Virus record (IMG/VR): IMGVR_UViG_3300037247_001584 | Location: 1-39,011 of that record | Strand: one strand, 5' to 3' | Origin: a virus | DNA length: 39,011 nt | In this document: positions 26,668 to 39,011 of the stretch, in pieces | Layout: each line of letters begins with the position of its first letter | How positions within the stretch are numbered: position 1 is the stretch's first letter | Translations under genes and position numbers: made by a program | The notes under the pieces: generated by a model | Told to the model about the DNA's origin: nothing | Seen by the model: only the letters and a program-made list of their open reading frames with translations | The model's database searches: none

Positions 26668-26960
26668 TGATGCGTCACATGTGTGTATGCGTCAGATCGC
26701 AAATGGGCTTGACTAACGCAGAGTTACTCAGGCGCTGGAAGGGATGCATCACAGACAAAGACACTACTTTAAAAACTGGTCAGGCTATAAGAGATTTTTT
26801 CATGGATCATTTAGCAGAGGGCCATGAGGTTATACCTGGCAGTGAGTGTGATAACTTCGATTTTAAAACGGGTTGTCTTGGACACCCCGAGCCGGGTAAG
26901 TATGAGTCTTCCCGCACCCCTTATCTCCGCGACCCAAAGGAGACCTGCGATGCCCAATAA
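26667..26960 (+). CDS. Small unknown early protein
   Basis: 97 residues starting in an ATGA overlap with the regulator (a later ATG at 26703 is also possible). Middle helix-rich (LTNAELLRRWKGCITDKDTT), then a Cys-containing end (SECDNFDFKTGCLGHPEPGK). Similar short proteins with GSECDNFD-type motifs occur in phage early regions, function unknown. It overlaps the ligase start by 11 bases. Confidence 0.55.
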   Translation: MMRHMCVCVRSQMGLTNAELLRRWKGCITDKDTTLKTGQAIRDFFMDHLAEGHEVIPGSECDNFDFKTGCLGHPEPGKYESSRTPYLRDPKETCDAQ

Positions 26961-27810
26961 GAAAACTCTCCTCCAGGGAGTCATGGACTATAAGCCGGAG
27001 TACGTCCGGGGCACGGTATATGTAGAGCCCAAGCTGGACGGGTGGGGCGCGATGTTTAAATGGGTAGCCGGGGTGGTCAAGGCCTTCACGCATACTGGCA
27101 CACCACTGGAGCTACCAACACAATGCAAACAGGTTGCCGAGGTACTGCCAACCGGGTTCTTCTTCCATGCGGAACTCACCCACCTCAAGGGCTGGCAGCA
27201 GATCAAGAGCGCCATTGCCTACGACCCTGACTCACTGATAGTAAATATATTCGACATGGTGAGCGAGGAGTTCTTTGTAGCCGGCGTTGACCTGCGGGGA
27301 TACACCACAAGGAAGAAGGCTCTATATAAAGTCTTTGCTGAAAAAGAACCTTTTGTTTTAGGCAGTCAGTTACTTACATATGCACACTTTGATAAATTAA
27401 CTGTGATTACAAAGGATGAGAGTATTAATGTCGAGAAAATACCAGAGGTTCATTCTATACACCTTAAGCTTGGTCACGAGGGCTCGGTGCTCAAGCGCCC
27501 GAACAGCCTGTATAACCTCGGCAAGACAACGGACTGGCTACGCATGAAGCCCGTACCCACCCAGGACTGTGAGATCGTAGAGGCTGTTTATAATAAACCT
27601 GGTGAATTAACAGTCGTCAAGGTGCTAGATGAGAAGGGCGTTATATGTAAAGTAAATGCTTTGGGTTGGAATGAAATTGGACTCCATATTAATAATGAAT
27701 CTTCTATCCTCGGCAAGATCATCGAGGTAGCGTACAGTCACCTCACCGAGGCAGGTCTCATGAGAGAGCCCCGCTTTGTTCGGTTCAGGGAGGACAAGAC
27801 AAGTGAGTGA
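26950..27810 (+). CDS. ATP-dependent DNA ligase
   Basis: 286 residues from the ATG at 26950, which has AAAGGAG upstream; the longer frame overlaps the previous gene. Nucleotidyltransferase motifs: I, VEPKLDGWG (Lys28 would take AMP; the usual Arg in KxDGxR is Gly); III, FFFHAELTH (Glu75); IV, HEGSVLKRP (Glu177); V, WLRMKPV (Lys200). The last 80 residues are a small OB-fold-like domain (DCEIVEAVYNKPGELTVVKV). It would seal nicks in replication or repair. It is the minimal phage type, lacking extra DNA-binding domains. Two stretches of the gene are notably AT-rich, suggesting mosaic exchange. Confidence 0.85.
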   Translation: MPNKKTLLQGVMDYKPEYVRGTVYVEPKLDGWGAMFKWVAGVVKAFTHTGTPLELPTQCKQVAEVLPTGFFFHAELTHLKGWQQIKSAIAYDPDSLIVNIFDMVSEEFFVAGVDLRGYTTRKKALYKVFAEKEPFVLGSQLLTYAHFDKLTVITKDESINVEKIPEVHSIHLKLGHEGSVLKRPNSLYNLGKTTDWLRMKPVPTQDCEIVEAVYNKPGELTVVKVLDEKGVICKVNALGWNEIGLHINNESSILGKIIEVAYSHLTEAGLMREPRFVRFREDKTSE

Positions 27811-28375
27811 TGTCAAAACCATCATAGCCCAGCTTGAGGCATTGCCAGACAGGGTGCTCGACCGTATCTGTGGCAACGAGATATTGGATACATCCGAGAC
27901 GTCAAATTGCTGCAAGTGGGGCGTGGGATGGTGGGAACTTCAATGCGTCATAGAGAAGGTCCACGAGGCTGGCCTCTTCCCTGAGTTCTTCGGATGTCTC
28001 CTGCACTGTATGGGCGATAAGGAATTCAGGGAGATATGCGGTATCCCCAAGGAGAGGCTAAAGGATTTAAGAGATAATGATTCCCCCTTCCTCATGGGTA
28101 TGGGCCTGATGGTACAGAGCCCGCGCAAGATAGTCATAGCCGCTATCGCGGCCAAGCGGTTACATGATATTTCACCGGAGGCGTGTGTTGGGTCTACCTC
28201 CAGCCCCGATGGCACACGCCTCCACCACACAGAACAGAAACCTTTTACCACCGTAGCTGTGGATGTCCAGAAGGATGGAGCTGAGGTAGAGGTAAAGGTA
28301 AATAATTGCCTCGGGTGTGGTCACTTTAAATGCACCGATGATTGCCCGCCTGGGGGTGAGCCCAATGATGCTTGA
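27803..28375 (+). CDS. Unknown protein with C-terminal Cys cluster
   Basis: 190 residues from a GTG at 27803 with GGAGG about ten bases upstream, overlapping the ligase end by eight bases. Helical middle (LKDLRDNDSPFLMGMGLMVQ, ISPEACVGST). It ends with NNCLGCGHFKCTDDCPPGGE, a compact four-Cys cluster likely to bind zinc. Two further Cys lie at CCKWGVGWWELQC. No family recognised. The start at GTG is a choice made from the ribosome binding site; an ATG 27 bases upstream is possible. Confidence 0.6.
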   Translation: MSDVKTIIAQLEALPDRVLDRICGNEILDTSETSNCCKWGVGWWELQCVIEKVHEAGLFPEFFGCLLHCMGDKEFREICGIPKERLKDLRDNDSPFLMGMGLMVQSPRKIVIAAIAAKRLHDISPEACVGSTSSPDGTRLHHTEQKPFTTVAVDVQKDGAEVEVKVNNCLGCGHFKCTDDCPPGGEPNDA

Positions 28376-28577: not shown

Positions 28578-28616
28578 GACCGTTTCGATATAAGGGCCTT
28601 CTCGGCCCGGTCTTTT
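28578..28616 (+). terminator. Possible weak terminator after the ligase-containing operon
   Basis: GACCG (28578-28582) and CGGTC (28608-28612) enclose GGGCC/GGCCC (28594-28598 with 28604-28608; one base shared, so the two stems compete), followed by TTTT. Located in the 121-base gap before the DUF5131 gene. Weak as a terminator. Confidence 0.4.
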
Positions 28617-28653: not shown

Positions 28654-28671
28654 AAAGCACACAGGAGAATG

Positions 28672-29634
28672 ATGAACGACAATAAAATACATCTGCCGAG
28701 TATAGGCAAAGGCAAGTTCTGGAACCTGGGGCCAATGGTAGTGACCGGATGCACCCATGTTTCACCTGGCTGTGAAAACTGCTGGAGCGAGAAGCTCCAC
28801 GCTATGCGTATGGGCAACCCGAGGATGGTTAATGTCTACTCCCCCGACCTCATGACCAGGGACGGCAAGTTCAATGGCGAGGTTCAGTTCAACCTCCGCC
28901 TGTTAGAGAATGCAGTCAAGACCCGCAAGCCTCAGGTGATCGCCCTCTGGAACGATCTGTATCATGAGGGGATACTGTTTCACGATATGGCTAAGGTGTT
29001 TGATCTAATAAATTACTCCCCTCAACACACCTTCCTGATAATTACCAAGCGTCCCGAGAGGGCGGCTGAGTTCTTTGAGCTTGAAGAAGATACACTTGGG
29101 CTTGAAATAAAATTACCCCCGCACGTCTGGCACATAGTCACGATGGAGAACCAGGCCATGGTGGATGAGCGCATGCCGCACCTCCTGAACATCCCAGGCC
29201 AGCGAGGCATTATCATCGAGCCCATGCTCGGGCCTGTGGATTTGGAGATACCATATGGTCAGGGTGTTGGTGATTTGTTGATTGAGAATATCCACCAGGT
29301 CATACTCGGTGGTGAGACAGGCCCCGGAGCCCGACCCATGCATCCGGACTGGGTGCGTTCGGTACGTGACCAGTGCCAGGCCACTGGTGTCCCCTTCTTC
29401 TTCAAGTCATGTGGTAGATATATAACTGAGGTATCAGGTGCTACAGATTGTATGATTGAACCCGGCTGGATGCGTGAGGATGGTTTTGTGCGTTCTGGCT
29501 TGGTACCTTATTCATCAGAAGCATCCGAGGTTGAGAAGCATCAATGGATAAAATGCGGCAAAGTTACTAAGGGTGATTCAGGCCGTACCCTCGATGGACG
29601 CGAGCATAACGACCTCGCATGGGTGACATCATGA
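28672..29634 (+). CDS. DUF5131 (phage Gp37/Gp68) protein, radical-SAM-like
   Basis: 320 residues from the ATG at 28672 (an ATG three bases earlier is too close to AGGAG). Family signature: FWNLGPMVVTGCTHVSPGCE-type start with Cys spaced C-x6-C-x2-C (about residues 27, 34 and 37), then VFLIITKRPERAAEFF-like and WHIVTMENQAMVDERMPHLL, ILGGETGPGARPMHPDWVRS and PFFFKSCGR. This family is common in phages and looks like a radical-SAM or photoproduct-lyase relative with an iron-sulfur cluster; its substrate is unknown. It shares a neighbourhood with a DNA methyltransferase and a true radical-SAM protein. Confidence 0.85.
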   Translation: MNDNKIHLPSIGKGKFWNLGPMVVTGCTHVSPGCENCWSEKLHAMRMGNPRMVNVYSPDLMTRDGKFNGEVQFNLRLLENAVKTRKPQVIALWNDLYHEGILFHDMAKVFDLINYSPQHTFLIITKRPERAAEFFELEEDTLGLEIKLPPHVWHIVTMENQAMVDERMPHLLNIPGQRGIIIEPMLGPVDLEIPYGQGVGDLLIENIHQVILGGETGPGARPMHPDWVRSVRDQCQATGVPFFFKSCGRYITEVSGATDCMIEPGWMREDGFVRSGLVPYSSEASEVEKHQWIKCGKVTKGDSGRTLDGREHNDLAWVTS

Positions 29635-29765
29635 GTACCGAAGCAATGAAAGCTTTCAGACAATGGGCATGCTTTATTTGTGTTGAGCACTCCGACTTTA
29701 TGTGTCGTGAAGATGAGTGCCAACATCGGGACCACAAAATATTATTAAAGAACGTGGGGCGGTGA
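29631..29765 (+). CDS. 44-residue Cys/His-rich miniprotein
   Basis: Starts in an ATGA overlap with the DUF5131 gene and ends four bases before the next start. The product begins MSTEAMKAFRQWACFIC and continues with CREDECQHRDH, so four Cys and several His are set to bind a metal. Too short to be called by length alone; the overlap, the frame and the similar neighbour support it. Possible partner of the DUF5131 protein. Confidence 0.55.
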   Translation: MSTEAMKAFRQWACFICVEHSDFMCREDECQHRDHKILLKNVGR

Positions 29766-29769
29766 CACC

Positions 29770-29982
29770 ATGAACGGTAAGCCCACAAGGTGCTATTACA
29801 CAAAGGACTGTATTGCCTCATCCACTGAGTTTACCCGTCGCACTATAGGCTCTGGCTGTATTGGCTGTACGCTTACTGACAGCGAGGGTTGTGACTACCT
29901 TATATCGCAGGAGGAGTGGGACGCCATAGCCCGTGACCCTGAATCATGGAAGCTGATAGCGCACTGCGTTGGAACATATTGA
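29770..29982 (+). CDS. 70-residue Cys-rich miniprotein
   Basis: Six Cys: RCYYTKDC, GSGCIGCTLTDSEGC and HC near the end. GGTGA lies before the ATG. Composition suggests one or two small metal sites. It is the last gene before a 200-base non-coding region. Function unknown; similar Cys-rich short genes lie upstream. Confidence 0.6.
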   Translation: MNGKPTRCYYTKDCIASSTEFTRRTIGSGCIGCTLTDSEGCDYLISQEEWDAIARDPESWKLIAHCVGTY

Positions 29983-30187
29983 ATCAACCGTCTAAGCCCT
30001 TGGCTTGACGTGCTGATATGGGGGAATAATTACCCCCCGGATAACGACTTATGGACAGGGTTTTTAATGTTTGATTCTTGTATTAACAGACAACCAGGGA
30101 GGGCGATGGCTTGAACCCATGATTATTTACCGTAGGGCCGGCCTGTACTCCGGCCTCGCGGCAAGTTAATCAAGGGAGGTTTTTGAA
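29983..30187 (+). other. Non-coding region with hairpins and a promoter candidate
   Basis: 205 bases without a convincing gene. It holds three inverted repeats: AAGCC/GGCTT (29994-29998 with 30002-30006), GGGGG/CCCCC (30020-30024 with 30033-30037) and GGCCGG/CCGGCC (30136-30141 with 30150-30155). The last is 17 bases before the AGGGAGG of the next gene. The set could be a terminator/attenuator plus promoter, or a small RNA. Confidence 0.5.
30005..30032 (+). promoter_or_regulatory. Promoter candidate before the methyltransferase operon
   Basis: TTGACG (30005-30010), 16 bases, TAATTA (30027-30032). It overlaps two hairpins, so binding of a protein or RNA folding could modulate it. It would serve the HTH, methyltransferase, radical-SAM and integrase genes. 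Confidence 0.5.
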
Positions 30188-30625
30188 ATTAACACTATCA
30201 CTCATAAGCACGCGGCGCTTGATGTGGCCACGGACGAGCTGGCTATAATGTTCGGCACAGGGGAGATCATACTCGATGCCCAGGGCACGACACCGGCTGA
30301 CCTCCTCACGGACGATCAGAGGCACGCTCTCGCTCGCGGGGTACTGCAATGTGTGATCGAGCGTAACCTGTTGGGCCAGGCCATGCAGACCCTTGGGGGC
30401 CGTAAGTGGCTGAACATGCGCCAGGCGTGCGAATACCTGGGGGTCTCAGAGAACAAGATCAAGGAGCTGTGCCGTATGGGATTCATCTATGGCATGAAGC
30501 CTCAGCGCCTGGCTGAGTGGCGCATTGACCGCGAGAGCATAGATCAATATCTTAACAGCCAGCGGTCTGATGAGAATGATAAGATACAGAACCGCCTGCT
30601 CAAAGTAGCCGGGAGGAATGTATGA
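30188..30625 (+). CDS. HTH protein (excisionase-like), probable ATT start
   Basis: 145 residues if started at ATT 30188, which lies eight bases after a perfect AGGGAGG (30173-30179). The first conventional start, GTG at 30224, has no ribosome binding site; the extra 12 residues ([M]NTITHKHAALD) read like normal coding sequence. ATT starts are rare (infC, pcnB in E. coli). Residues about 72-125 carry a MerR/excisionase-type HTH: KWLNMRQACEYLGVSENKIK followed by a wing (LAEWRIDRESIDQYLN). It may be the directionality factor for the nearby integrase or an operon regulator. The stop overlaps the methyltransferase start. Confidence 0.65.
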   Translation: MNTITHKHAALDVATDELAIMFGTGEIILDAQGTTPADLLTDDQRHALARGVLQCVIERNLLGQAMQTLGGRKWLNMRQACEYLGVSENKIKELCRMGFIYGMKPQRLAEWRIDRESIDQYLNSQRSDENDKIQNRLLKVAGRNV

Positions 30626-31632
30626 AGGTTCACAAGTACAATACATTCGACCCGTGGCCGCTTGAGGACAAGAGCGTCCAGGCCATTATCACAAGTCCAC
30701 CGTACTGGGGCAAGCGCAACTATCCCATCCCTGATGTAATCATAGGGGGAGATTCGGAGCATGAACATATCTGGGTACCTGCCTCCCTGAAGGACAGTCG
30801 CTCATGGAAGAGCCCAAGCATAGTAAAGAGAGAGAACCTTACCAAGGATTGCAATATATGTGAGTGTGGCGCTTACTACGGTCAGCACGGCCTTGAGCCT
30901 TACATCCAGATGTACCTCGATAACTTCATGATATGGGTCAAGGAAGCCTGGCGGTGCCTGAAGGACGATGGCATACTGTTTATCAATATGGATGACACAT
31001 GGGGTGGGAGCTGGGGTGGTTCAAAGGATGACCCCCTCTTCAGGCGTAAGAGCTTGCTCATGATCCCGCAGCGCGTCTCAATTGCCATGTTCGATATGGG
31101 CTGGTACTTCCGTAATTATATGCCTTGGGAAAAAAGTAATGGTATACCTGACTCCGCAGGGGACAGGTTCGCTCATCGTCATGAGACTATATTCTTATGC
31201 ACCAAGAAGCCTGATTATTATTTTGACCTCGATCGGGTTAGAGTACCTTATCAGCCTGATTCATTCCGAAGGTTTAAGGATGGCTATACTCCTCAAAATA
31301 TTCCAGATAGTGATATGCCCGGACGTTCAAGACCGCATCAGAGGAATTATAAGATGCATCCCTTGGGCGCCAACCCCGGAGATGTCTGGAGATTCTCAGC
31401 ATCAAAGGAGCCCGGGCTCCAGCACTCAGCCATGTTCCCTGAACCATTAGTGGACCGCATGGTCAAATGCTCGACCAAGCCGGGTGATACGGTGCTTGAC
31501 CCCTTTGCCGGTTCGGGTACCACGCTCCGCGTGGCTGATTCCCTTGGCTGTAATGCCATTGGCTTTGACCTGGGCTACGAGGAAGTGAGAAAGCAACGCC
31601 TTACGGAGATCCAGAGGGAGATGGCGCTATGA
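30622..31632 (+). CDS. DNA methyltransferase, beta class (N4-cytosine/N6-adenine)
   Basis: 336 residues. Catalytic motif IV TSPPYW at 24-29 precedes the AdoMet motif I LDPFAGSGTT (about 293-302), which defines the beta order; SPPY favours N4-cytosine but adenine enzymes also have it. A small metal-like knuckle (CNICEC, Cys 77, 80, 82) with GQHGLEPYIQMYLDNF, then LKDDGILFINMDDTWGGSWG, match a widespread phage methyltransferase group. No restriction enzyme is nearby, so it is an orphan enzyme, possibly for protection from host restriction. It is coupled (ATGA) to the HTH gene and to the radical-SAM gene. Confidence 0.9.
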   Translation: MKVHKYNTFDPWPLEDKSVQAIITSPPYWGKRNYPIPDVIIGGDSEHEHIWVPASLKDSRSWKSPSIVKRENLTKDCNICECGAYYGQHGLEPYIQMYLDNFMIWVKEAWRCLKDDGILFINMDDTWGGSWGGSKDDPLFRRKSLLMIPQRVSIAMFDMGWYFRNYMPWEKSNGIPDSAGDRFAHRHETIFLCTKKPDYYFDLDRVRVPYQPDSFRRFKDGYTPQNIPDSDMPGRSRPHQRNYKMHPLGANPGDVWRFSASKEPGLQHSAMFPEPLVDRMVKCSTKPGDTVLDPFAGSGTTLRVADSLGCNAIGFDLGYEEVRKQRLTEIQREMAL

Positions 31633-32555
31633 AGGTCTTACTGATAGACATAGACAGCACTATCCCCAACCTGGCCCTTGCCAAATGTAAGGCATTCCAT
31701 GAGCAGAGGGGTGATACCGTGAGTGAGAACTTCCCCCTTGCCGCCAGCTCGGCTGATCGGATATATGTATCATGCGTATTCCAGAAGAACAGGCATGAAG
31801 CTGAACAGTATGAGGTATATCCTCAAGCTTCAATCGGCGGTTCCGGCTACGATCTTAAATCGAAGTTACCGCCTGAGATAGACGCTATCAAGCCTCGCAT
31901 CAATATGGGCTTCACCACAAGGGGTTGTATAAGGAAGTGCGGCTTCTGTGTGGTGCCTGAGAAGGAAGGTAATATTCAGATAGTGGGTGATCTCCTTGAC
32001 CTCTGGGACGGCAAGAACAAGCGCGTCACTATCATGGACAATAATATACTCGCTGTGCCCGAGCACTTCATGATGATATGCAGGCAGGCGCGAGAGAACA
32101 ATATCCGGATTGACTTTAACCAGGGCCTTGACCACAGGCTATTGACTCCTGAGATAGTGCAGGAGCTAGCCATCACGCCCATTTCAGCTTACAGGTTTGC
32201 GTATGATGGCTTGGGTATGCGTAAGTCTGTTAATCGCGCTGTGGCTCTCCTGCATGCGTATGGCATCAGGTATGCTCAATGGTACGTGCTCGTTGGATAT
32301 GATACCTCAATGCGTGAGGACGTTCAGCGTATCAATCACCTGCGGTTCCTCCGCCAGAGAGCCTATGTTCAGCGTTACAATCCAGAATATCGCAAATATA
32401 TTGTAATTGCCAGATGGGCTAACCAACGTAAAGTATCTAATATGACACTCATGCAGTTCATGAATCATAAAGCTGAAGTTAAATACTGTGACGAATGGAT
32501 GGATTGCTATTTGCATGACATTGGGCGTGACGTTATGGAGGGCCCCAGGGTATGA
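31629..32555 (+). CDS. Radical-SAM protein with B12-binding-like N-terminus
   Basis: 308 residues. The Cys motif CIRKCGFC (Cys100, 104, 107) binds a 4Fe-4S cluster for radical chemistry with S-adenosylmethionine; NMGFTTRGC precedes it and VTIMDNNILAV follows, where the next strand of the partial barrel lies. The first 60 residues (MKVLLIDIDSTIPNLALAKC) look like a small Rossmann or B12-binding-like domain, as in methylthiotransferase-like proteins. Similar phage proteins of unknown substrate exist. It overlaps the methyltransferase and integrase genes as ATGA. Together they suggest modification of a nucleic acid or protein (inference). Confidence 0.85.
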   Translation: MKVLLIDIDSTIPNLALAKCKAFHEQRGDTVSENFPLAASSADRIYVSCVFQKNRHEAEQYEVYPQASIGGSGYDLKSKLPPEIDAIKPRINMGFTTRGCIRKCGFCVVPEKEGNIQIVGDLLDLWDGKNKRVTIMDNNILAVPEHFMMICRQARENNIRIDFNQGLDHRLLTPEIVQELAITPISAYRFAYDGLGMRKSVNRAVALLHAYGIRYAQWYVLVGYDTSMREDVQRINHLRFLRQRAYVQRYNPEYRKYIVIARWANQRKVSNMTLMQFMNHKAEVKYCDEWMDCYLHDIGRDVMEGPRV

Positions 32556-33568
32556 GACTCTATAAGCGCGAGAACGGATACTGGTACATCGAGGTCAACC
32601 GGGGCTTTAAGTTCACCACGGGTACCAGGGACAAGCGTATTGCGGAGGAGTTCTTCCGGCGATACAGGGAGCAGCTCAGTGAGGGCAAACTCGTCAAGCT
32701 CGGGCGCACGAAGCATATCAAGGTGCTGGATATGATAGGCGAGTACCTGGAGCACAAGACAGACGAGGGCCTGGCTGGCAGCACGCTCAAGTCCTACCAC
32801 CAGTCACTCACGCAGATGGCAACCATCCTCGGCAACGGGATGGTGCGAAGTATTACAGGGGAACATGTGACCATCCTCAAACAGAGACTTCTGGAGCGTG
32901 GGGTACTTAAGAGCACCATCAACTCGCGCCTGACCATAGTGAGCAGCTTCTTCACCTGGGGCGTGGGACGCAAATATATGAGGGACAACCCATGCCAGAG
33001 GGGGCCGGGCGAGGGCACGCTCAGATTTAGGACAGACAAGTCCCTGCCTCGCTACCTGAGAGAGGACGAGATAGAGCGCCTGCTTGATGGGTCCCGTGCT
33101 ATACCGGGGCTATTGCTTGCGGTATGTATTGGGTTGTACGCGGGCCTCAGGGCGTCTGAGATGCTTAACCTCGATGCCCGCAAGGACATTGACCTCAGGA
33201 ACCGAAGGATCATAGTGCGCAGGACCAAGAGCAAAGAGGACCGTATGGTACCGATCAACGCGGCGCTGATGAAGGTGATAGGGAAGCAGCTCACGCCCTT
33301 TGACCGCTATGTTACGGGACGGCAGTGGTCATACAATATGCTGAGAACGCGCCTGAAGGCGCTGGACAGTATGACGGGGGACCACGTGACCTTCCATATG
33401 CTTCGGCACACGTTCGCCTCTTACCTTGCTATGCAGGACATATCCATGGCCAAGCTCCAGAGGTTGATGGGCCATAAGGATATCAAGACAACGATGATAT
33501 ACGCCAGGGTCTCGGATGAGTCGCTCCGCGAGAGCGTCGAGTCCCTAGACTTCGGCACAGGAGGATAG
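32552..33568 (+). CDS. int: Tyrosine integrase
   Basis: 338 residues. Catalytic set: Arg200 (GLYAGLRASEM), Lys in RTKSKEDR (about 226), His282 and Arg285 (HMLRHTFAS), His308 (LMGHKD), Tyr317 (TMIYARV). The N-terminal arm-binding region (MRLYKRENGYWYIEVNRGFK) is a three-stranded fold as in lambda Int-like enzymes, followed by the core-binding helical domain (SLTQMATILGNG, INSRLTIVSSFFTWGV). It integrates the phage at a host attachment site. Direct repeats suitable as arm sites lie just downstream. It is transcribed in the early direction, so integrase would also be expressed with the early operon. Confidence 0.95.
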   Translation: MRLYKRENGYWYIEVNRGFKFTTGTRDKRIAEEFFRRYREQLSEGKLVKLGRTKHIKVLDMIGEYLEHKTDEGLAGSTLKSYHQSLTQMATILGNGMVRSITGEHVTILKQRLLERGVLKSTINSRLTIVSSFFTWGVGRKYMRDNPCQRGPGEGTLRFRTDKSLPRYLREDEIERLLDGSRAIPGLLLAVCIGLYAGLRASEMLNLDARKDIDLRNRRIIVRRTKSKEDRMVPINAALMKVIGKQLTPFDRYVTGRQWSYNMLRTRLKALDSMTGDHVTFHMLRHTFASYLAMQDISMAKLQRLMGHKDIKTTMIYARVSDESLRESVESLDFGTGG

Positions 33569-36885: not shown

Positions 36886-37281
36886 ATGACTGACCTCTCC
36901 TCCATAAGAGCCGAAGTGGCGGCACTGGACGATCAGGCCTTGATACTGGAGGTGGTGAAGGCCATCGGGTGGACCGTCCAGGAGGGTGGACACTATGCCA
37001 TGAAGCATGACGGCACGCGCTTTATGCTGGCTGATCCAAAGGTCCTTGGGCGGTGCATGCTGGGCTCAGTGCTCGACCTGACCAGCAAGAGCATACAGTG
37101 GGCCCGGCTGCATGAGGTGGTGAGTGGGGCGTGGGAGAACCCGTTTACTGTTGAGAACTTCGAGGAGGCGTTGAGGTATATGGCCGGGAACACGCCAGGC
37201 CCTGACCTGTGCGACGCCCTGATGATCAAACCGCGCCAGCTATGCGAATGCATAGTCATGGCACAAAGGATGAGGGGATGA
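36886..37281 (+). CDS. Unknown protein
   Basis: 131 residues, all-helical pattern with a small central hairpin (VQEGGHYAMKHDGTRFMLAD). A Phe/Trp-rich patch around FTVENFEEALRYMAG. It overlaps the ASCH-like gene by four bases (ATGA). No family recognised. Confidence 0.55.
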   Translation: MTDLSSIRAEVAALDDQALILEVVKAIGWTVQEGGHYAMKHDGTRFMLADPKVLGRCMLGSVLDLTSKSIQWARLHEVVSGAWENPFTVENFEEALRYMAGNTPGPDLCDALMIKPRQLCECIVMAQRMRG

Positions 37282-37868
37282 AAGAACGTCCAATACTATT
37301 CAACGCCGAGATGGTGCGAGCCATATTTGATGGCCGAAAGACCCAGACAAGGCGGGTGGTATCCGACAAGATACTTGACAAGGCTAACGATGGCTTTATA
37401 TTAGATGGTGAGTGGCACTTATGGTGTCCCTACGGTAAGGTGGGTGACAGGCTATGGGTGCGCGAGACATGGCAGACAGATGCTGAACAAAGGGGATTAG
37501 CTTACAGGTCCACCGATAGTAAACTTAACGAAGATATACCATGGAAACCATCAATCCATATGCCCCGATGGGCCTCACGCCTCACCCTTGAGATAACCGA
37601 TATCCGAGTGGAGAGGGTGCAGGATATAAGCGAGGAAGATGCTAAGGCCGAGGGTGCTAAAATGATGCCATGGTTTGTTCCTTATGGCTGTAAAGATGAG
37701 GGCGAGCATAAATATGTAGATGGTTTAGAAGCAATGATAAAGAATCATAAGGCTATCTACAGGAACGGATTTGCTACTCTCTGGGGCTCCATCAACGCCT
37801 CACGTGGCTATTCATGGACCACTAACCCCTGGGTATGGGTAGTGGTGTTTAAGGTGATAGATGCCTGA
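37278..37868 (+). CDS. ASCH/PUA-like domain protein
   Basis: 196 residues from the ATGA overlap at 37278. The opening RPILFNAEMVRAIFDGRKTQ TRR-type pattern followed by GDRLWVRETWQ, SIHMPRWASRLTLEITDIRV and ERVQDISEEDAKAEGA match phage ASCH-like (PUA fold) proteins, probably RNA binding or involved in modified-base handling. The end NPWVWVVVFKVID is typical too. Function unproved. Confidence 0.75.
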   Translation: MKERPILFNAEMVRAIFDGRKTQTRRVVSDKILDKANDGFILDGEWHLWCPYGKVGDRLWVRETWQTDAEQRGLAYRSTDSKLNEDIPWKPSIHMPRWASRLTLEITDIRVERVQDISEEDAKAEGAKMMPWFVPYGCKDEGEHKYVDGLEAMIKNHKAIYRNGFATLWGSINASRGYSWTTNPWVWVVVFKVIDA

Positions 37869-38917: not shown

Positions 38918-39011
38918 TAGTGGAGCAGCTCCAGCAGGGTAGACATATAACCACTATGTTATGCAAGGCGCGGGTCCTTCTGGGGTGTACGCCCTATGCG
39001 GGTACGATGAG
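38914..39011 (+). CDS. Possible small gene that spans the genome ends
   Basis: A GTG at 38914 with GGAGGAAGG upstream opens a frame of 32 codons (VIVEQLQQGRHITTMLCKAR...) that reaches the right end still open. If the ends are joined at the 11-bp repeat it continues at base 12 and stops at 73-75, giving 53 residues. Complete only in the circular form. Could be chance. Confidence 0.3.
   Translation, partial: MIVEQLQQGRHITTMLCKARVLLGCTPYAGTM
39001..39011. repeat. Right terminal direct repeat, putative cohesive end (cos)
   Basis: Exact copy of the first 11 bases. It follows the gpZ-like gene and, after joining of the ends, precedes the terminase operon. Joined, the sequence reads without interruption from the early operon into the packaging genes. 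Confidence 0.55.

Follow-up and report, generated by a model that had tools for sequence, protein, structure and literature searches.

Do two putative iron-sulfur enzymes and a DNA methyltransferase that are encoded close together in a virus genome act in one pathway that modifies phage DNA or a host molecule? The question is raised by a gene set of IMG/VR virus record IMGVR_UViG_3300037247_001584, a stretch of 39,011 bases that was analyzed in full (hereafter, the window) and whose gene order is that of a tailed phage, with a large terminase that shares at most about 37% identity with the terminases of named tailed phages. An earlier note on this DNA had described a DUF5131 protein, two cysteine-rich miniproteins, an excisionase-like helix-turn-helix (HTH) protein, a beta-class methyltransferase and a radical S-adenosylmethionine (SAM) protein, with an ASCH/PUA-like protein farther downstream, and had proposed that the two iron-sulfur enzymes and the methyltransferase share a pathway. 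All of these genes are present, and the set lies on one strand and has ATGA overlaps at positions 29631, 30622, 31629 and 32552. Our analysis confirms this observation and strengthens both iron-sulfur assignments, as motif, alignment and predicted fold place the two proteins in the radical-SAM superfamily, while the joint three-enzyme pathway is unsupported as a conserved unit. The neighborhood of one of the two families, phrog_9298, offers a genuine lead that can be tested.

Motifs and predicted folds of the two radical-SAM candidates

The 308-residue protein encoded at 31629–32555 (+ strand) matches phrog_9298 (E value 2.3e-53) and carries the Cx3Cx2C motif that had been noted before, as C100-x3-C104-x2-C107. 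Across 21 aligned proteins these three cysteines do not vary, and motifs of the DNNIL and DFNQGLD types accompany them; the window protein shows no notable difference from this family of anaerobe phages. Its structural model (predicted local distance difference test score, pLDDT, 90) comprises a Rossmann domain and a radical-SAM barrel, and the best solved folds, AprD4 (Z 17.1), MgmA, MtaB, TsrM and MiaB, match most of the chain with Z scores of 15–17. These matches indicate the Rossmann-plus-barrel architecture of B12-type radical-SAM enzymes and methylthiotransferases, with the difference that the Rossmann-type N-terminal domain of the model, at the position of the cobalamin domain in B12 enzymes, is shorter. 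Sequence searches gave no meaningful match to solved structures and no NCBIfam model above cut-off. Taken together, motif and model make a convincing case for a predicted radical-SAM enzyme with a B12/MiaB-type two-domain fold. A methylthiotransferase was considered and rejected, since C100, C104 and C107 are the only invariant cysteines and no set of second-cluster cysteines is conserved (C49 is frequent but stands alone). The family was found in 15 of 50,697 deposited phage records, and the hosts written in them are Bacteroides, Phocaeicola, Methanomassiliicoccales, Oscillospiraceae and Marinitoga, all of which are anaerobes.

The second candidate is the 321-residue DUF5131 (Gp37/Gp68) protein encoded at 28669–29634 (+), whose ATG lies 3 bases 5′ of the start given in the earlier note (28672). 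It exceeds the Pfam cut-off for PF07505 (E value 2.8e-56), matches phrog_2045 (1e-63) and shares the cysteine triad, a T-K-R motif and GARPMHPDW with 34 viral relatives. The C-x6-C-x2-C motif reported previously is present as GC-x6-C-x2-C at residues 28, 35 and 38, and its three cysteines are invariant in an alignment of 35 proteins; in both families the conservation of the cysteine motifs is thus far beyond chance. Among 100 DUF5131 relatives, 86 have the form GCX6CX2C and 13 the form CX3CX2C, and the alignment places the cysteines of both forms in the same columns, so that CX6CX2C corresponds to an insertion of three residues. The CX3CX2C relatives, which are the best-scoring ones, match TIGR04471 (radical SAM mobile pair protein A) with E values of about 1e-30, far under its cut-off; the window protein, with its CX6CX2C motif, matches at 1.9e-9 and 37.3 bits against a cut-off of 355 and does not reach it. 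No radical SAM mobile pair B protein was present among the neighboring genes scanned.

In structure comparison, the AlphaFold2 model of the DUF5131 protein (pLDDT 81) scores highest with spore photoproduct lyase (4FHC and related entries; 193 residues aligned, Z 11.5), on which the predicted barrel superposes over residues 16–247 with a root-mean-square deviation of 3.2. RlmN follows (Z 10.6), and unrelated barrels reach Z 8–9. A Foldseek search taken alone was weak (E value 0.005), and phmmer returned no match to any solved structure. Because the cysteine triad aligns with that of the CX3CX2C relatives and the model contains a partial TIM barrel fold, the protein is convincingly, if by alignment and model, assigned to the radical-SAM superfamily, with an inserted cluster loop as its predicted peculiarity. 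Could it then repair a lesion in phage DNA, with an activity like that of spore photoproduct lyase? This lyase is indeed the best fold match; however, the two proteins are 12% identical, their cysteine spacings differ (6+2 in DUF5131, 3+2 in the lyase), the phmmer search offers no link, and lesion specificity is not readable from a fold, so we regard such a repair function as very improbable.

DUF5131 genes occur in 152 deposited phage records, many of them from phages of aerobic actinobacteria. In isolated actinophages, a few genes separate it from one for a methyltransferase, HNH or ASCH protein, and no phrog_9298 is annotated in that neighborhood; a literature search found no paper that names DUF5131. 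PADLOC profiles for component B of the defense candidates PDC-M30 and PDC-M41 match the window protein (E values 1.6e-36 and 1.8e-38), and DUF5131 with the two small open reading frames (ORFs) that follow it forms a block of its own in the window, both of which would suit a prophage-borne defense or counter-defense system separate from the methyltransferase and phrog_9298 genes. Against such a system stand the location of DUF5131 among replication and recombination genes in phages of several hosts and the lack of one candidate partner: neither the window nor any of 50 viral records with DUF5131 contains the three-Cys-motif protein (TcmP family), which was therefore rejected in this role. Component A of PDC-M30 or PDC-M41, whose identity was not looked up, was not listed for any of the nine proteins scanned (for the methyltransferase, among the best 25 of 69 matches). 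We judge this defense role to be improbable.

Modification genes in the neighborhood of phrog_9298

Loci carrying phrog_9298 were gathered from IMG/VR and GTDB genomes, DUF5131 loci were collected as well, near-duplicates were removed, and 80 IMG/VR loci drawn by an arbitrary 15-mer served as the control. A next gene was defined as one less than 400 bases away and distant genes as those of the same loci at distances above 4 kb; the modification families counted were beta-class methyltransferases, C5-methyltransferases, Dam-like methyltransferases and PAPS-reductase-family proteins. The density of beta-class methyltransferases per 100 kb was 2.8 in viral phrog_9298 loci, 0.8 in DUF5131 loci and 0.3 in random viral loci, and genes of all four families concentrated within 150 bases of phrog_9298. 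The next gene was a modification gene in 32 of 152 non-redundant phrog_9298 loci versus 24 of 581 distant genes (p 4e-10), a statistic that carries selection bias because the families other than the beta-class methyltransferases had been picked for their commonness near phrog_9298. The same count gave 4/70 for DUF5131 and 1/360 for random viral loci. Thus, the earlier note's link to DNA modification holds for the surroundings of phrog_9298, which adjoins such genes above background, but does not extend to a conserved unit of three families.

Co-occurrence of the families at the level of whole records, scored with library models, was in modest excess: PF01555 was present in 19/50 phrog_9298 records versus 9/50 random records (one-sided p 0.022), PF07505 in 9/50 versus 2/50 (p 0.026), and phrog_9298 in 5/50 DUF5131 records versus 0/50 (p 0.028). 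The excess bears out the suggested co-occurrence in part; on the other side, only two of the nine PF07505 matches in phrog_9298 records had the window-type CX6CX2C, and the phrog_9298 matches in DUF5131 records, five in all, included only one that was full-length and strong. Most DUF5131-family genes near phrog_9298 belong to another subgroup than that of the window: seven loci of viral and genomic contigs (L133, L136, L162, L170, L218, L002 and L199) have, no more than 10 kb from phrog_9298, a gene from the TIGR04471-related CX3CX2C subgroup of PF07505.

Several further neighbors of phrog_9298 were observed. A PP-loop gene of the PAPS-reductase family adjoins it in 12/152 loci (background 7/610), mostly in genomes of anaerobes (L183, L193, L219, L232, L236, L238, L244, L250, L139, L126, L206 and L223), and possibly points to sulfur chemistry. 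A phage endonuclease I-like protein, forming a cluster of eight, adjoins phrog_9298 at L170:11116-11553 and in seven other loci, with PF05367 in the one example that was scanned. Phocaeicola phage PV4-TP1 (L255, 778–11372) combines phrog_9298 with another annotated radical-SAM protein, several methyltransferases, ASCH, a PAPS reductase and a tRNA splicing ligase, all within 11 kb.

The neighborhood also bears on a serious rival, according to which the two radical enzymes act on RNA, protein or metabolites and not on DNA: phrog_9298 would be a MiaB/B12-type modifier of tRNA or a small molecule, DUF5131 would be RlmN-like, and their proximity to methyltransferases would merely reflect a storage site for accessory genes. 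Known substrates of AprD4, MgmA, MtaB, TsrM and MiaB, the fold neighbors of phrog_9298, are tRNA, protein, antibiotics and tryptophan, and none of these enzymes is known to act on DNA; RlmN ranks second among the fold matches of DUF5131, which some depositors name an RNA methyltransferase, and the PV4-TP1 phrog_9298 gene lies near that of an RNA ligase. However, phrog_9298 adjoins DNA-modification genes more often than do other genes of the same regions, and the top six fold matches of DUF5131 all represent one DNA-acting enzyme, spore photoproduct lyase. We consider non-DNA targets possible, if on the doubtful side.

The methyltransferase and its relation to the radical-SAM genes

The methyltransferase gene (30622–31632, +; 336 residues) encodes a predicted beta-class N4/N6 DNA methyltransferase that matches PF01555 over its full length (E value 2.7e-47; 162 bits against a cut-off of 26.7) as well as phrog_67 (4.2e-52). 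Its SPPY (residue 25) precedes FAGSG (residue 295), which is the beta-type motif order and agrees with the SPPY-bearing beta-class enzyme described before; full-length match and an SPPY placed before FxGxG are shared with phage N4/N6 methyltransferases of these families. SPPY in amino-methyltransferases favors N4-methylcytosine (m4C), and from this motif the product is probably m4C. The closest relatives from isolated phages are about 33% identical, and no restriction endonuclease was recognized beside the gene in the window. No close relatives of the methyltransferase or of DnaC were found in IMG/VR, and hence there is no relative of the whole cassette for comparison.

Are the methyltransferase and the radical-SAM enzymes parts of one pathway? 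In such a joint hypermodification, the methyltransferase or another enzyme would mark a base, and phrog_9298, DUF5131 or both would elaborate its carbon or ring by radical chemistry into a new phage DNA base. The ATGA that couples the methyltransferase and phrog_9298 genes in the window, a zero-gap junction of the same two genes in L104, the rise in methyltransferase density towards phrog_9298, and the presence of all three families within 10 kb in the window, L136, L162, L170, L218 and L232 are what such a pathway would lead one to expect. Phage base modifications by methyltransferase relatives have been reported, and carboxymethylcytosine by CmoX exemplifies a pathway that builds on a methyltransferase-type first step (PMC12783734).

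The comparison of loci speaks against it. DUF5131 was never the direct neighbor of phrog_9298 (0/152) or of a beta-class methyltransferase (0/70), the beta-class methyltransferase was the next gene in only 8 of 152 phrog_9298 loci, and a conserved cassette of the three genes in adjacency was not seen in the loci compared. Partner types of phrog_9298 vary between N4/N6, C5 and Dam-like methyltransferases and PAPS reductase, and the 13 loci with a stand-alone methyltransferase less than 1.2 kb upstream of phrog_9298 include both SPPY and DPPY enzymes. A dedicated pair of radical-SAM enzyme and methyltransferase was rejected, as methyltransferase distances and radical-SAM distances are uncorrelated across these 13 pairs (Mantel r −0.08, p 0.69). 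Variable partners and absent co-divergence therefore argue for a modular accessory island and not for one fixed pathway, and the joint pathway proposed earlier finds no support for three families whose methyltransferase is interchangeable. We deem joint hypermodification unlikely, and are similarly skeptical of a looser version in which phrog_9298 installs or elaborates a phage-DNA base modification after, or in parallel to, interchangeable methyltransferases or PAPS-reductase-family proteins.

Radical-SAM modules have been described in other phages, with partners that differ from those in the window: Campylobacter phages CP220 and CPt10 carry a module of unknown function with an amidinotransferase gene (PMC2853527), and Thermus phages Cumys and phiMa carry one of unknown function with DUF483 (PMC11437467). 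No case of radical chemistry that acts on entire phage genomes came up in our literature search; combined searches for radical SAM and phage DNA modification gave nothing, and broader ones returned only context papers.

A probable accessory island next to the integrase

The best explanation, to which we give about even chances, is that a tailed phage has gathered several nucleic-acid-modification genes in an accessory island near its integrase gene, and that these genes do not form a single dedicated pathway. Here, the methyltransferase would methylate the phage genome, and also that of the host, probably to m4C, and most likely thereby protect the DNA from restriction. The proteins of phrog_9298 (of B12/MiaB-type architecture) and DUF5131 (with a barrel like that of spore photoproduct lyase and RlmN) would each most likely generate a 5′-deoxyadenosyl radical and act, independently of the methyltransferase, on a nucleic acid or nucleotide. 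We infer such targets for DUF5131 because its nearest folds, spore photoproduct lyase and RlmN, both act on nucleic acids, and for phrog_9298 because of its gene neighbors.

Several points weigh against this explanation. No recognized modification gene is adjacent in 120 of the 152 phrog_9298 loci, for example in a Marinitoga virus and vir215; three of the four modification families were chosen for their frequency within 6 kb of phrog_9298, and the beta-class methyltransferase, the only family set in advance, yields 8/152 versus 13/604 with a p value of only 0.042. Moreover, SPPY is no proof of m4C.

Layout of the gene set and its surroundings

A gap of 241 bases (29982–30224) divides the set into two gene blocks, namely DUF5131 with the two cysteine-rich ORFs, and the HTH, methyltransferase and phrog_9298 genes. 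The first cysteine-rich ORF (29631–29765, +) is joined to the DUF5131 gene by the ATGA at 29631, encodes 44 residues from this overlap (48 from an upstream ATG) and contains four cysteines spaced CxxC-x7-C-x4-C, by which it is possibly a small metal-binding protein; the second, an ORF call at 29770–29982 (+), encodes 70 residues with six cysteines. Both miniproteins of the earlier note thus exist as ORFs, but only as putative coding genes, because neither has a homolog in the fetched loci; neither has a family match.

The second block begins with the excisionase-like protein already noted, encoded at 30224–30625 (+; 133 residues from a GTG, with an alternative start possible farther 5′), which matches HTH_17 (PF12728, E value 7e-10) and, slightly below cut-off, TIGR01764 (2.4e-6) and is a predicted DNA-binding protein. 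This block continues unbroken into a tyrosine integrase gene (32552–33568, +; PF00589, 1.8e-27), which marks the island boundary and is coupled to the phrog_9298 gene by the ATGA at 32552, a coupling absent from the earlier note. The downstream ASCH-like protein was recovered at 37209–37868, 4.7 kb beyond the set, by phrog_874 (E value 3.7e-70), with Pfam ASCH slightly below cut-off. Just 5′ of the DUF5131 gene lies a terminator-like hairpin (28594–28608, +; 5-bp stem, T-rich tail), which was graded weak because the window holds five such sites where shuffled sequences give 3.4.

Also just 5′ of DUF5131, the ORF at 27764–28375 (+) encodes a protein of about 200 residues with a C-terminal cysteine cluster (CLGCGHFKCTDDC) and weak, sub-threshold matches to 4Fe-4S ferredoxins, and is a possible candidate for a third iron-sulfur protein. 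The ORF at 26824–27810 (+) resembles an ATP-dependent DNA ligase, as judged by eye only (EPKLDGWGA, EGSVLKRP, DWLRMKP). Positions 1–11 and 39001–39011 of the window are identical (GGTACGATGAG) and may represent a short terminal repeat or the assembly overlap of a complete genome.

Implications

Phages rank among the major sources of new DNA modifications, and the window places two widespread, uncharacterized phage radical-SAM families beside a DNA methyltransferase. With phrog_9298 recurring near modification genes of several chemical types, and DUF5131 predicted to be a radical-SAM protein with an inserted loop, the two families offer concrete enzyme candidates that can be put to the test.

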